DNA of 64,000 nucleotides from Blastococcus sp. TF02A-30. Its GTDB lineage: Bacteria > Actinomycetota > Actinomycetes > Mycobacteriales > Geodermatophilaceae. Below the pieces are notes generated by a model. The model saw only the letters and a list, made by a program, of their open reading frames with translations, was not told the origin of the DNA and did not search any database. Location of the stretch: contig NZ_QOHJ01000004.1 in NCBI RefSeq assembly GCF_003319185.1, positions 310,001 to 374,000 of the forward strand, in the 5' to 3' direction. Of this stretch, positions 1,509 to 7,286 are shown in pieces (the stretch's first letter is position 1; every line of letters begins with the position of its first letter). The translations under genes were made by a program, and so were the position numbers.

Positions 1509-1936
1509 GCGCCCCTCGGCCCGCGCTCGGCCTGCTCCTCGCCGCCGCGCTCGCCGTCGTCGCGCGGCTGACCCTGACGCCCAGCGGCACCGGGTACGCC
1601 GTGGCCTCACCGGTCCAAGAGCTGCACTGGTACGCCGACGGCCTGTCGTCCCCGGCGACGGTGGTGCAGCTCCTGGGCAACCTGCTGCTGCTGGCCGTCC
1701 CCGCCTTCGCCGCGGTGCGCCTCTGGCCCCGGCTGGGCCGCCCGGTCCCGCTGGTGGCCGTCGCGCTGGCCGCCGGCGTCGCCATCGAGCTGGCCCAGTA
1801 CGTCCTCCCCCTCGGGCGCGTCGTCTCCCCGCTGGACGCGCTGCTCAACGCGGCCGGCGCGGTGGCGGCGGGCGCGCTGGCGGCTCAGCGCAGGCGGACC
1901 GGACCGGCGTCGATCCGGGTGCGGAACAGGACGTAG
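1505..1936 (+). CDS. VanZ-like membrane protein
   Basis: The 143-residue protein has four hydrophobic segments (about residues 5-20, 45-65, 75-95 and 105-125). Between them lie features typical of the VanZ-like family: a short LTPSGTG loop after the first helix, a GNLLLLAVP segment, and the ELAQYVLPLGRVVSPLDALLNAAGA-type end, of which E-x-x-Q and D-x-x-x-N are the recognisable family residues. VanZ proteins give low-level teicoplanin resistance in enterococci; most actinobacterial relatives are uncharacterised. The start overlaps the previous stop (GTGA). The last 52 bp overlap, tail to tail, the end of the beta-propeller gene on the other strand. Confidence 0.8.
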   Translation: MSAPRPALGLLLAAALAVVARLTLTPSGTGYAVASPVQELHWYADGLSSPATVVQLLGNLLLLAVPAFAAVRLWPRLGRPVPLVAVALAAGVAIELAQYVLPLGRVVSPLDALLNAAGAVAAGALAAQRRRTGPASIRVRNRT

Positions 1937-2994
1937 GGCTTGCGCCGCTGGTCCTCACCGCCGCGGTACGTGGCCTGCCGGTACAGCTGGTTGGCGGTCA
2001 CGTAGAGGAACCCGTCGACAGCGACGGACATCGTGTCGGGCCACAGCAGGCGGGGGTCGTGGACGACGGTCTCCCAGCTGCCGTCGGGCAGCCGGCGGTG
2101 GATGGCGTCGTGCTCGCCGTCGGTGACGTAGAGCCGTCCCTGGTCGTCGGTCTCCAGCCCGTCGCTGACGCAGCCCTTGTCGCCCTCGTCCCGGACGGTG
2201 GCCGCGACGGCGTCGTCGTCCTGGTCGCGGTCGACCAGGGCGTCCACCGAGACGCTGTACCAGCGGCGTCCGGCCAGCGGGCAGTAGTACAGCCGGTCGC
2301 CGTCGGCGGCGATCGCGATGCCGTCGGCGCCCATGGTCACCGGCGAGGTCTCCCCGTCGGGTGACCGCTCCAGGAACTCGACGCCCTCGACGACCATCCG
2401 CAGGTCCGGCGGGGTGGTCGCCTTGGTGCTCGGGTGCTCGTGCAGCCGCCGCCACGACTCGCCGGTCGCCAGGTCCACGACGATGATCCCGTTCGGGCCC
2501 TGGTCGGACGAGTCGGTGATGAAGGCCGTGCCCGCCTCCCCGCGGCGCAGGTCGAAGCGCACGTCGTTGAGGTAGGTCGTCGGCAGCGCCACGTCGGTCG
2601 GGAACAGGATGGTCTGCACGACCTGGTCGGTGGTCAGGTCGACGCGGACCAGCTTCGGGCCGCCGTGCTCCGTCGGCTGGAACATCGGGCTGCCGGTGTC
2701 GAGCACCCACAGCCGGTCGGCCGGGTCGACGACCACGCTCTGCACCGAGACGAAGCGCTCCGGGTCGGCGTCGGACCGGTTGTCGTTGAGCTCCTGGGAC
2801 GGGAACGCGACCTCCCGCCCGTCGCGGAGCTCGCCCACCGTGAAGCCGACGTCGTCGCCCCACTTGGGATAGCAGACGAACACCCGCCCGGCGTGCGACA
2901 CGGTGACGCCGGTGGGCATGGCACCGGTGAACTGGTGGACGACCTCCAGCCCCCCGATCGTCTCCTCGACCGCCAGCCGCATCGCCGCGGTCAC
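1885..2994 (-). CDS. Yellow / major-royal-jelly-type beta-propeller protein
   Basis: The 369-residue soluble protein has repeated beta-propeller blades with the pattern of the Yellow/MRJP and SMP-30-like families: YPKWGDDVGFTVGEL, LWVLDTG near residue 100, YLNDVRFD near 150, AFITDSS, and a closing MSVAVDGFLYVTANQL. LWVLDTG and YLNDVRFD are the blocks I associate with the Yellow family (insect royal-jelly proteins; bacterial members occur but are mostly uncharacterised). No signal peptide is seen. Its GTG start overlaps the TGA of the hemerythrin-esterase gene (GTGA), so translation is probably coupled. A lactonase-like or ligand-binding role is possible, but the substrate is unknown. Confidence 0.8.
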   Translation of the reverse strand: MTAAMRLAVEETIGGLEVVHQFTGAMPTGVTVSHAGRVFVCYPKWGDDVGFTVGELRDGREVAFPSQELNDNRSDADPERFVSVQSVVVDPADRLWVLDTGSPMFQPTEHGGPKLVRVDLTTDQVVQTILFPTDVALPTTYLNDVRFDLRRGEAGTAFITDSSDQGPNGIIVVDLATGESWRRLHEHPSTKATTPPDLRMVVEGVEFLERSPDGETSPVTMGADGIAIAADGDRLYYCPLAGRRWYSVSVDALVDRDQDDDAVAATVRDEGDKGCVSDGLETDDQGRLYVTDGEHDAIHRRLPDGSWETVVHDPRLLWPDTMSVAVDGFLYVTANQLYRQATYRGGEDQRRKPYVLFRTRIDAGPVRLR

Positions 2995-4586
2995 CGGGAC
3001 GTCCCACCGATCGGTGCCGCACCCGCGGTCGACCGGGCGGCGCCGAACGCGCGGGTGAAGTGCGTGGCAGCCTCCTGCTGGGCCTGCTCCGCCTCGTCCA
3101 GCACGGCCGCGGCGCCGAAGAACTCGTGCATGACGCCGGCGTAGTGGCGGTGCGTGGTGGGAACCCCGGCGGCCTCGAGGTCGCGGGCGAACTGCTGCCC
3201 CTGGCTGCGCAGCGGGTCGCGCTCGGCGGTGATGACCAGGGTGGGGGGCATGACCGCGAGCTGGTCGCGGGACCAGCCCAGGAGGTTCACGCGGGGGTCC
3301 TGCGCGCCGTCCGGAACGCCCTGGAAGGCGTGCATGGCCATCCAGCTGAGCAGGGCACGGTTGGCCGGCCGTGCGTCGGCGGCGTCCTCCATCGACTCCC
3401 CGAACTGCTCGCCGGTGGTCAGCGGGTACACGCACACGGCGGCGGCGGGCAGCTGCTCGCCGGCCTGCGCCAGCTGCAGCACGGTGGCGGCGGTCATCGT
3501 GCCGCCGACGGACTCGCCGCCGATGCCGATGCGCGTCGGGTCGCCGCCGAAGGAGGCGGCGTGCTGCTGCACCCACCGGTAGGCGGCCAGCACGTCGTCG
3601 TGCGAGGCCGGGAACACCGCCTCGGGGGCTCGCCGGTACTCGGGGCTGACGACGATCGCACCGGTCTTGTTGGTGAGGCCGCGGCACGAGGCGTCGTAGG
3701 TGTCGATGTCGAACAGCACCCAGCCGCCGCCGTGGATCCACGTGATCACCGGCAGCGGCTCCGCACCGGCGCCGGCCGGCGTGTAGACGCGCATGCGCAT
3801 CTGCCCGCCGGCGGCATCGGGGATCACGAGGTCCTCGACCGAGCCGACCGCCTCCGGCCCCTCGATGCCCTGGTCGGCCATGACCTTCTTCACCGCGTCG
3901 TCCGGGCCGGGCTGCTTGCGCGCCTGGTCCGGCTCCAGGATCTCGAAGGGCAGTGGGCCCAGCGAGGAGTGCGCGTCGACGATGGCCTGGGCCTGGGGCG
4001 TCAGCAGGCCGGAGGGGTCGGTGGCCATCTCCTTCTGCTTGCCCGAGAGCAGGTCGCGCACGTGGTCCAGCGGCTTGGCGAGCATCCCGGCGATCCGCTC
4101 GGCGATGCCCTCGTCGGGGGCGTGCGGGTGCGGCCGGGTGGGCGCCATGCGCTTGGCGGCGAGGAACTGCTCGCCGAGCCGCGCCATCCGCTCTGCACCG
4201 GCCTTCTGCCGGAACTGCGGCAGCTCGTCGGTCTCCTCGTCGTCCACGTGGTGGCGGGTGACGGCGATGAGCTTGGACAGCGCGTCCTCGAACTCCGGCT
4301 GGCCGGGTTCCGTGCGGCCCAGGGTGACGAGGAGCTCCTTGATCTGCTGGTGCTCGTGCTCGGCGTCGTCGTGCTCGTCGGTCATGCCGATCTCGGGCCA
4401 GATCGGGTAGAGCACGGTCTCCTCGGCGAAGGCGTGCAGCGCGAGCTGGAAGGAGATCTGGTCCACCAGCACCCGCCGGTTGCCGCGGGCGGCCTCCAGG
4501 TACTGGAACTGGCGCTCCACGGCCGCGTGGTCGTCGGCGATCAGGTGGTCGACGTCGCCGGGCAGGGTCGGGTAGTCCAGGGCCAC
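2991..4586 (-). CDS. Hemerythrin-like domain fused to an HSL-type alpha/beta hydrolase
   Basis: Two domains are readable in this 531-residue protein. Residues 1-150 look like a hemerythrin HHE four-helix domain, with His/Glu ligands in DDHAAVE, ALHAFAEE, AEHEHQQ and TRHHVDDEE. Residues about 190-515 form an alpha/beta hydrolase of the hormone-sensitive-lipase/acetyl-esterase type: oxyanion motif HGGGW near 286, nucleophile GESVGG (Ser359), Asp457 in ERDPL and His487 in GVMHEFF. The GTG at 4586 is preferred because AGGAG sits 5 nt upstream, whereas for the GTG at 4592 it would abut the start codon. The gene is coupled to the Yellow-type gene downstream. I infer an iron/oxygen-sensing or peroxide-linked esterase. 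Confidence 0.85.
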   Translation of the reverse strand: MALDYPTLPGDVDHLIADDHAAVERQFQYLEAARGNRRVLVDQISFQLALHAFAEETVLYPIWPEIGMTDEHDDAEHEHQQIKELLVTLGRTEPGQPEFEDALSKLIAVTRHHVDDEETDELPQFRQKAGAERMARLGEQFLAAKRMAPTRPHPHAPDEGIAERIAGMLAKPLDHVRDLLSGKQKEMATDPSGLLTPQAQAIVDAHSSLGPLPFEILEPDQARKQPGPDDAVKKVMADQGIEGPEAVGSVEDLVIPDAAGGQMRMRVYTPAGAGAEPLPVITWIHGGGWVLFDIDTYDASCRGLTNKTGAIVVSPEYRRAPEAVFPASHDDVLAAYRWVQQHAASFGGDPTRIGIGGESVGGTMTAATVLQLAQAGEQLPAAAVCVYPLTTGEQFGESMEDAADARPANRALLSWMAMHAFQGVPDGAQDPRVNLLGWSRDQLAVMPPTLVITAERDPLRSQGQQFARDLEAAGVPTTHRHYAGVMHEFFGAAAVLDEAEQAQQEAATHFTRAFGAARSTAGAAPIGGTSR

Positions 4587-4692
4587 GCGCACTCCTCGGA
4601 TCGGATTCGGGATCGGGCAAGGACCGCCTGCTCTCGACGATCGGCTGCCCGCGACCTACCCGCCGACCTCCCCGGTACACCCCCGGATCGAT

Positions 4693-4749: not shown

Positions 4750-5892
4750 ATGAAGGCCGTCGTCTACCGAGGCCCGAAGGACGTCGCGATCCAGGACGTG
4801 CCCGACCCGACCATCCAGTCCCCCACCGACGCCGTCATCCGCATCACGACGACGAACATCTGCGGGTCGGACCTGCACATGTACGAGGGCCGCACCGGCG
4901 TCGAGGAGGGCAAGGTCCTCGGCCACGAGAACATGGGGATCGTCGAGGCGGTGGGCCCCGGCGTCGACCGCATCCAGGTGGGCGACCGGGTCTCCGTCCC
5001 GTTCAACGTCGCCTGCGGCACCTGCCGCAACTGCACCCAGGGCTGGACGTCGTTCTGCCTGCGCGCCAACCCGACCGAGGGGATGGACGGCGCGGCCTAC
5101 GGCTACGCGAACATGGGTCCGTACGACGGCGGTCAGGCCGAGTACCTGCGGGTGCCGTGGGCGGACTTCAACCTGCTGCGACTGCCGCCGGGCACCGAGC
5201 ACGAGAACGACTTCACGATGCTGTCGGACATCTTCCCCACCGGCTGGCACGGCGTGGAGCTCTCCGGGCAGCAGCCCGGCGACCGGGTGGCCGTCTTCGG
5301 CGCAGGTCCGGTCGGGCTGATGGCGGCGCACAGCGCGCTGCTCCGCGGCGCTTCGGAGGTCTTCGTCGTCGACAAGGAGCCCGACCGGCTCCGGCTGGCC
5401 GGGAGCATCGGCGCCACCCCGGTCGACTTCTCCCAGGGCGACCCGGTCGAGCAGCTGATGGACGCCACCGGCGGGCGCGGGGTCGACCGCGGCGTCGAGG
5501 CGGTCGGCTACCAGGCCCACGACCCGTCCGGGCAGGAGCATCCCGAGCTGGTGCTCGACAACCTGGTCCAGGTCGTGCGCTCGACCGGCGGGATCGGCGT
5601 CGTCGGCGTGTACATGCCCCAGGACCCCGGCGCAGCCACCGACCTCGCCAAGGAAGGGCGCATCCCCTTCCAGTACGGCCAGTTCTTCACCAAGGGCCAG
5701 TCCATGGGAACCGGCCAGTGCCCGGTCAAGCGGTACAACCGGCAGCTGCGCGACCTGATCGTCACGGGCCGTGCCACGCCGTCGTTCATCGTCTCCCACG
5801 AACTCGGCCTCGAGCAGGCCGTCGAGGGCTACGACCGGTTCGACCGGCGCGAGGACGGCTGGACCAAGGTCCTCCTGCACCCGGCCGCCTGA
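4750..5892 (+). CDS. Zinc-dependent dehydrogenase, glutathione-independent formaldehyde dehydrogenase type
   Basis: The 380-residue medium-chain dehydrogenase has catalytic zinc ligands in NICGSDLH and GHEN, the structural-zinc cysteines in CGTCRNCTQGWTSFC, and an NAD-binding GAGPVGLMA near residue 180. The MLSDIFPTGWHG block and the TGQCPVKRYNRQL region are typical of the glutathione-independent formaldehyde dehydrogenase/dismutase family (Pseudomonas putida FdhA type), which oxidises formaldehyde with NAD. AGGAGG stands 7 nt before the ATG. A similar dehydrogenase follows at 6075. The stress-type promoter upstream suggests induction with general stress. Specificity for other small aldehydes or alcohols cannot be excluded. 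Confidence 0.85.
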   Translation: MKAVVYRGPKDVAIQDVPDPTIQSPTDAVIRITTTNICGSDLHMYEGRTGVEEGKVLGHENMGIVEAVGPGVDRIQVGDRVSVPFNVACGTCRNCTQGWTSFCLRANPTEGMDGAAYGYANMGPYDGGQAEYLRVPWADFNLLRLPPGTEHENDFTMLSDIFPTGWHGVELSGQQPGDRVAVFGAGPVGLMAAHSALLRGASEVFVVDKEPDRLRLAGSIGATPVDFSQGDPVEQLMDATGGRGVDRGVEAVGYQAHDPSGQEHPELVLDNLVQVVRSTGGIGVVGVYMPQDPGAATDLAKEGRIPFQYGQFFTKGQSMGTGQCPVKRYNRQLRDLIVTGRATPSFIVSHELGLEQAVEGYDRFDRREDGWTKVLLHPAA

Positions 5893-6074: not shown

Positions 6075-7286
6075 GTGAAGGCAGTGGTGTGGCACGGCGT
6101 CGGGGACATCCGGCTCGACGACGTCCCCGACCCGACCATCCAGGACCCGACCGACGCGATCGTCGAGATCACCGCGAGCGCGATCTGCGGCACCGACCTG
6201 CACTTCGTGCGCGGCACGATGAGCGGGATGGTCGAGGGCACGATCCTCGGGCACGAGGCGGTCGGCGTCGTCCGCGAGGTCGGCTCCGGCGTGCGCAACC
6301 TGCGCCCGGGCGACCGGGTGGTCATCCCCTCCACGATCGGCTGCGGTATGTGCTCGTACTGCCGGGCCGGCTACTACGCCCAGTGCGACAACGCCAACCC
6401 CAACGGGCCGGCAGCAGGTACCTGCTTCTTCGGCGGTCCGCAGACCACCGGGCCCGTCGACGGCCTGCAGGCCCAGTACGCCCGCATCCCGTACGCCAAC
6501 GTGGGACCGGTGTGGCTGCCGGACGAGATCGGCGACGACGCGGCGATCATGCTGTCCGACATCTACCCGACCGCCTGGTTCGGCGCCCGGCTGGCCGAGG
6601 TCGGCCAGGGCGACACCGTGCTCGTCCTCGACGCCGGCCCGGTCGGCCAGTTCGCCGTCACCAGCGCCTTCCAGCAGGGCGCCGGACGCGTGCTCGTCGT
6701 CGACGGCATCGGCTCGCGGCTGGACCAGGCCCGTGCCCGAGGTGCCGAGGCGATCGACTTCAACGCCGAGGACCCGGTGGCCGTGGTCAAGGAGCTGACC
6801 GGGGGCATCGGGGTCGACCGGGTGATCGACGCCGTCGGCGTGGACGCGCAGCGGCCGAAGAGCGGGCCGGCGGCCGAGGCGGCCGAGCAGCAGGCAGGCC
6901 AGTTCGAGCAGGAGCGGTCGCGGGTGGCGCCCGCGCAGAACCCGCAGGGCGGCACCTGGGTGCCCGGCGACGCACCCAGCCAGTCGCTGCAGTGGGCGGT
7001 CGAGGCCGTGGCCAAGGCCGGCAGCATCGGCATCATCGGGGTCTACCCGCCGGAGATGACGAGCTTCCCGACCGGTGCGGCCATGAACAAGAACCTGACG
7101 GTGAAGATGGGCAACTGCAACCACCGCCGGTACCTCCCGCACCTGCTCGACCTGGTGCGCACGGGCGCCATCGACCCCTCGACGGTGCTGACCCAGGTCG
7201 ATGACATGCCCTCGGTGCTCGACGCGTACGAGACCTTCGACCAGCGGCAGACCGGCTGGACGAAGGTGGTGCTGGACCCGTCCTGA
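6075..7286 (+). CDS. Zinc-dependent alcohol dehydrogenase, formaldehyde-dehydrogenase-like
   Basis: The 403-residue protein is a paralogue of the gene at 4750 (both begin KAVV..G followed by VPDPTIQ-PTDA). It carries AICGTDLHF and GHEA zinc-site motifs, structural cysteines CGMCSYCRAGYYAQC, and DAGPVGQFAVT where the usual GxGxxG nucleotide motif has Asp as first residue. An insertion of about 45 charged residues near 255-300 (EAAEQQAGQFEQERSR region) is shared with longer members of this family and absent from the first paralogue. The GTG start has GGAGG 6 nt upstream. It probably oxidises an alcohol or aldehyde with NAD; the substrate is not known. Confidence 0.85.
   Translation: MKAVVWHGVGDIRLDDVPDPTIQDPTDAIVEITASAICGTDLHFVRGTMSGMVEGTILGHEAVGVVREVGSGVRNLRPGDRVVIPSTIGCGMCSYCRAGYYAQCDNANPNGPAAGTCFFGGPQTTGPVDGLQAQYARIPYANVGPVWLPDEIGDDAAIMLSDIYPTAWFGARLAEVGQGDTVLVLDAGPVGQFAVTSAFQQGAGRVLVVDGIGSRLDQARARGAEAIDFNAEDPVAVVKELTGGIGVDRVIDAVGVDAQRPKSGPAAEAAEQQAGQFEQERSRVAPAQNPQGGTWVPGDAPSQSLQWAVEAVAKAGSIGIIGVYPPEMTSFPTGAAMNKNLTVKMGNCNHRRYLPHLLDLVRTGAIDPSTVLTQVDDMPSVLDAYETFDQRQTGWTKVVLDPS

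Follow-up and report, generated by a model that had tools for sequence, protein, structure and literature searches.

The window analysed here, a stretch of 64,000 nucleotides from the soil actinobacterium Blastococcus sp. TF02A-30, carries on its reverse strand a gene (2991..4586) whose product joins an HHE (hemerythrin-like) four-helix domain to a serine esterase domain of the hormone-sensitive lipase (HSL) type. The protein has 531 residues if translated from the GTG at 4586, or 533 (2991-4592) from the GTG at 4592. The former appears to be the better start, since an AGGAG at 4592-4596 lies five bases 5' of it and since the match to the window protein begins at this same residue in most homologues. 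Residue numbers are counted here from GTG 4592 and are thus those of the initial annotation plus 2, its Ser359, Asp457 and His487 being our Ser361, Asp459 and His489. Only 8 bp downstream, on the same strand, lies the gene of a 365-residue major-royal-jelly/yellow-type protein (MRJP; 1885..2982; PF03022, 122.1 bits). Two zinc alcohol dehydrogenase genes are found on the forward strand: ADH1 (4750..5892), which is divergent from the fusion gene and FdhA-like (TIGR02819, 347.6 bits, below the cut-off of 637), and ADH2 (6075..7286; PF08240 and PF00107), 37.5% identical to ADH1.

The HHE domain covers residues 14-147 (4152..4553, reverse strand). Its sequence is matched by Pfam Hemerythrin PF01814 at residues 15-126 with 36.6 bits, above the cut-off of 25.3, and it has the four-helix bundle fold of that family; the NCBIfam PA2171-family model reaches 50.5 bits on the same part, below its cut-off of 190. 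Among the matches listed, its best sequence and fold match is the Mycobacterium kansasii HLP, a homologue of Rv2633c (PDB 6q09); in the two VIA-align fold comparisons, the matches listed belong in each case to a single one of the two domains. The His/Glu residues that had been noticed initially are indeed present: H22, H53, E57, H81, H115 and E119 align with the six ligand positions of 6q09, and the domain probably binds two irons, the positions of the ligands being taken from this alignment. A second alignment spans five of the six, H22 lying outside it. The M. kansasii HLP is a single-domain protein, unlike the fusion, and is described with a tyrosine ligand in PMC8913304. The ligand pattern of the HHE domain, H-HxxxE-H-HxxxE, is not that of canonical O2-binding hemerythrins, with A77 at the place of the expected extra His in helix 3, and H115xxxE119 followed by E120 and no Asp in helix 4. 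This rules out a canonical oxygen carrier, and the general statement that such domains bind oxygen does not carry over to this protein. The profile of the YtfE/RIC iron-centre repair proteins (PDB 5fnn, 7bha) also gives an HHE-type match (E 1.4e-5). RIC proteins carry an N-terminal ScdA_N-type domain. Such a domain is absent among the Pfam matches listed for the window protein (E up to 1), in which only about 13 residues precede HHE helix 1, and the esterase found in its stead sets the fusion apart from the RIC/YtfE family. In the same genome (G000), contig C36 holds four hemerythrin-family matches within 20 kb (110597-130181), out of 11 matches in all.

The second domain, at residues 199-516 (3045..3998, reverse strand), is matched by Pfam Abhydrolase_3 at residues 285-492 with 198.1 bits. 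The catalytic elements of family IV are found in the usual order on an alpha/beta-hydrolase fold: the HGGG oxyanion motif (residues 287-290; 3723..3734), the GESVG nucleophile motif (359-363; 3504..3518) with Ser361, then Asp459 (3216..3218) and His489 (3126..3128). The complete alpha/beta hydrolase that had been proposed is thus present in the window copy: by motifs and fold it is a serine esterase of the HSL type (family IV) with nothing missing, and its activity is predicted. HGGG, Asp and His are kept in 48 of 48 rows, and the serine in 38 of 48, the other 10 having a glycine. The same motifs and fold are common to HSL-family esterases such as Est8 (PDB 4ypv) and the LipP1 family, and the matches to solved HSL-family structures span only the esterase part of the fusion. 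Narrower family models score below their cut-offs, with 242.2 bits for the NCBIfam LipP1 family (NF058653; equivalog cut-off 350) and 166 bits for the chloramphenicol hydrolase model (cut-off 500).

Both domains lie in a single frame in 38 distinct aligned rows from many genomes, 37 of them other than the window and 53-96% identical to its protein. This alignment leaves out identical copies, L029, of which two short stretches are present, and L073, truncated by a contig end; the L022 row in it lacks its start, also at a contig end. For three pairs of close copies whose sites are intact, dN/dS is below 1 in both domains (0.18-0.45 for HHE and 0.08-0.21 for the esterase). The pairing of hemerythrin and esterase in one chain, first read from the window alone, is confirmed by the Pfam matches to its two parts and by the recurrence of the same domain order.

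The fusion gene is patchily distributed within Actinomycetota. Within the genus, both domains were matched together in 14 of 23 genomes, where G009 has two copies. At the order level this holds for 16 of 200 (E limit 1e-100), the G137 match being cut by a contig end, at the class level for 5 of 394 (E limit 1e-70), and at the phylum level for 1 of 396, the own genome (E limit 1e-60). Genus g21 has 13 copies in 12 of 121 genomes, and family f10 has the fusion in 4 of 24, G137 among these. These samples overlap, and each includes the own genome or a centre genome with the gene. The named records are from Geodermatophilus, Blastococcus, Modestobacter, Nocardioides, uncultured Nocardioidaceae and Sporichthya. 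A pattern search of species genomes, which finds close relatives only, returned 24 loci: 20 full or nearly full fusions, all in actinobacterial records, the two pieces of L029, also actinobacterial, and three loci matching the HHE part alone. In plasmids (E limit 1e-60), none of nine matches covers 80% of the query, all nine being esterase-only. An origin of the fusion outside Actinomycetota was set aside on these grounds, as far as such searches for close relatives reach; distant fusions may exist in other phyla.

How the two parts were joined can be read from their stand-alone relatives. Between the domains lies a connecting segment (residues 148-198; 3999..4151, reverse strand), which had been taken for a linker of about 40 residues. 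A segment is indeed there, but most of it is the native tail of stand-alone actinobacterial HHE proteins, with which the fusion has the sequence in common up to about residue 187 (APTRPHPxAP...DRxRD). The junction is thus placed near residues 188-198. Stand-alone proteobacterial esterases start matching the fusion at residues 199-202, which indicates that a complete HHE gene was joined to an esterase. Nine residues of the segment are invariant in the 38 rows (R148, P151, H155, P156, D176, T191, D192, S194 and L197). The nearest sampled stand-alone relatives are eight proteobacterial GESAG esterases encoded on plasmids (e.g. NZ_CP061037.1), 41-47% identical over about residues 199-493. At the place of the HHE domain they have a signal-peptide-like N-terminus, with a maximum 15-residue Kyte-Doolittle mean of 1.73-2.25 against 0.17 for the window protein and -0.05 to 1.27 for the 38 fused rows; these hydrophobic N-termini are presumably signal peptides. 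In a tree of 69 esterase domains (48 of the fusion family, the 8 proteobacterial GESAG and 13 actinobacterial GDSAG sequences), all 48 fusion-family domains fall on one side of a branch with 100/98 support. The tree is midpoint-rooted and flagged by the tool for long branches meeting; the proteobacterial group is weakly supported in it (85/47), and the 13 GDSAG sequences lie outside. Among the sampled sequences, the fusion seems to have arisen once and to have been kept in scattered relatives.

The AlphaFold model of the full chain has a mean pLDDT of 91.8 and a pTM of 0.90, the latter being the model's own estimate from an alignment of 54 rows. Since a pTM of about 0.6, close to the fraction of the chain taken up by the esterase, would be expected with the 190-residue HHE part placed at random, docking appears to be predicted with confidence, and the model suggests that the HHE bundle sits at a fixed position on the esterase. 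A physical coupling of the two domains would also be in line with the connecting segment, whose blocks at 151-190 have a pLDDT of 70-80 in the full chain versus 44-57 in an HHE-only model, and with the invariant residues of the junction. Its conservation gives a mixed picture: over the 38 rows its mean majority (0.80) is close to that of HHE (0.82) and of the esterase core (0.81), but in a set of 12 diverse rows it ranks lowest, with a pairwise identity of 0.54 versus 0.60 and 0.67. Regulation of the esterase by the HHE domain is a plausible hypothesis.

Joining a hemerythrin-type domain to an effector or an enzyme is known from DcrH, Bhr-DGC, Bhr-HD-GYP and a P1B-5 ATPase. According to passages of the review PMC9388753, the partners in the fusions named there are chemotaxis, c-di-GMP and metal-pump outputs, and the bacterial sensors carry H-HxxxE-HxxxH-HxxxxD, the ATPase having H-HxxxE-HxE-HxxxxD. 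The window fusion differs from the sensors described there in its ligand pattern and in having a serine esterase as partner. The sensor class is also defined by regulation of the output domain, whereas for the fusion the joining is observed and the docking predicted. For O2-binding hemerythrins, 56 architectures are reported in PMC4919030. Words starting with esterase or hydrolase are absent from the main text of PMC4919030, PMC2556348 and PMC9388753. At the level of titles and abstract openings, the literature on hemerythrin fusions gave no earlier description of a hemerythrin-esterase fusion, in agreement with the initial remark that the combination was not known as characterised.

Natural variants provide further clues, since some lineages have lost one of the two sites. 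Glycine replaces Ser361 in 10 of 48 rows, all from genus g21 (L070, L071, L129-L136). HGGG, Asp and His are kept in all ten, and the HHE ligands in all nine with a readable HHE row. Three other g21 copies (L069, L127, L128) keep the serine, and G1005 holds one copy of each kind. The Ser-less copies, considered with their flanks (L078, L079, L137-L144), are 94-98% identical in DNA and are counted as one recent event. Their surroundings are mostly different, one pair having 2.8 kb in common, which suggests that the gene has recently spread from species to species. The shared blocks end differently from pair to pair (left -57 to -504, right 1627 to 2677), which gives no support to a mobile cassette whose ends are fixed. 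The esterase domain that lacks the serine appears to be under constraint nonetheless. In eight of these ten copies (L079, with an insert, and L142/L134, with a stop, being dropped) nonsynonymous changes are under-represented, with an N/S ratio of 0.42 in the esterase (p 1.2e-4), 0.51 in HHE (p 0.029) and 0.93 in the linker; the binomial test used is a simple one and takes no account of mutation bias, recombination or common descent. Inside this clade, dN/dS values of single pairs are noisy (up to 0.67 for HHE and 1.5 for the linker).

The converse loss is seen in L067 and L068 (2 of 47 HHE rows), where F22, V57, N81, Q115 and S119 replace five of the six ligands and the triad is intact; L072 has Ala at position 57. 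All six ligands are intact in the other 44 of 47 rows, even in copies whose overall identity is as low as 54-55%; L134, of which the HHE piece was dropped, does not enter these counts. The HHE domain evolved fast where the ligands were lost, with a dN/dS of 0.76 against the ligand-intact L066, compared with 0.23 for the esterase of the L066/L067 pair, and is constrained again between L067 and L068 (0.115). With ten copies lacking the nucleophile and two lacking five ligands, neither site is universally needed. That each can be lost alone with the chain kept argues against one obligatory sensor-to-esterase circuit. Thanks to such single-site variants, sequences that are already known allow one to ask whether a diiron domain governs the enzyme attached to it.

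The neighbourhood of the fusion gene is conserved in part. In 13 of 47 other fusion loci, the next gene downstream is again that of an MRJP. An FdhA-like dehydrogenase, with at least 72% identity to ADH1 or ADH2, is encoded no more than about 3.1 kb away in 14 of the 47 loci, three different arrangements being seen. A conserved operon as the key to function finds partial support in these counts, automatic gene calls, which are crude, having served as leads. The 33 loci lacking a dehydrogenase at this threshold include all ten Ser-less ones, some flanks being short (L022, L027, L015 and L084 among the 47); L068 has downstream dehydrogenase fragments below the threshold, and one of the three g21 copies with serine has the dehydrogenase (L145). 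Close relatives of ADH1 are found near the fusion in three families. In the own genome, no further match to ADH1 exceeds 45% identity, which makes it unlikely that the two genes are neighbours by chance; part of the pattern is due to linked inheritance in close relatives. Around the stand-alone esterases, surveyed in 8 of the 9 plasmid records (H5 left out), a catalase-family gene adjoins the esterase in L148 and L159 (Sphingomonas, Paracoccus), DNA ligase D lies within 4 kb in L147, L161 and L162, and a gene annotated as DUF4142 is nearby in L147, L160 and L161. The catalase gene after the esterase in L148 and L159 is a possible parallel to HHE as an oxidant-handling partner.

Taken together, we tentatively propose, with a probability of roughly 0.45, that the fusion protein is a cytoplasmic diiron-coupled esterase of stress metabolism, its iron, substrate, regulation and stress role being putative. 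An exported GESxG esterase would have had its signal peptide replaced by an entire HHE gene, tail included, so that the enzyme would now act in the cytoplasm and carry the HHE bundle docked to its surface. This bundle, probably with two irons, would react with peroxide, NO or oxygen, like the mycobacterial HLP, and either tune the esterase or clear oxidants beside it during stress. The esterase would split a small ester, the alcohol part of which may pass to the neighbouring FdhA-like dehydrogenase in part of the loci. Coupling would be useful and not obligatory, since lineages that lost either active site keep the whole chain. The link to stress is drawn from gene neighbourhoods, and two of the eight plasmid records (L149, L150) have no catalase-family, DNA ligase D or DUF4142 gene. 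Linker variability, the 33 of 47 loci devoid of a dehydrogenase, the site losses and the fast HHE evolution count against this explanation. With such a fusion, diiron control, or the handling of oxidants by a diiron site, would reach into the metabolism of small-molecule esters.

The two activities could also be independent: a peroxide- or NO-consuming diiron domain and an esterase would then share a chain for the sake of co-expression, and no signal would pass from one to the other. This is somewhat unlikely, although the loss of each site alone with the other kept, the separate catalase-family genes next to stand-alone esterases in L148 and L159, and the poor conservation of the linker in the 12 diverse rows would all fit; the pTM of 0.90 and the better-ordered linker of the full model speak rather for a fixed interface. 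A redox- or NO-gated serine esterase, in which the state of the diiron site opens or closes the HSL pocket and the pocket of the Ser-to-Gly lineage serves as a ligand sensor for the diiron domain, is unlikely. We know of no serine esterase under direct diiron control described before, and a gated enzyme would, if real, be the first known to us.

A role of the HHE bundle mainly as a structural or dimerising arm, with iron incidental and the esterase as the function, is quite unlikely. The constraint still acting on HHE in L067/L068 after the loss of five ligands would agree with such a role, but not the retention of all six in 44 of 47 rows, diverged copies included. Plant GID1 illustrates a receptor-like use of the HSL fold, and the esterase pocket could likewise be a binding domain with the diiron site as the worker. 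The ten-copy Ser361Gly clade would suit such a role, given its mostly different flanks, its preserved HGGG, Asp, His and (in nine readable copies) HHE ligands, and the low esterase N/S ratio in eight of them. A binding pocket is nonetheless improbable, as the full triad is found in 38 of 48 copies, including that of the window, and in three further g21 copies, and as the Ser-less clade is one recent lineage.

A joining of two genes by a frame error, the refutation foreseen in the initial annotation, has a negligible probability and was ruled out by the 38 in-frame rows from many genomes, nothing in the window speaking for it and the split copies L134 and L029 being the cases in its favour. In L029 (2404-2929, Modestobacter sp. 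DSM 44400), the HHE part is reduced to its first 94 residues and the esterase to 66 residues near its end, the two pieces lying close together on a short contig; this reflects either an internal deletion or an assembly fault. In L134 (1501-3072), an in-frame TAG separates the two domains, which are then either made as separate proteins or belong to a gene in decay.
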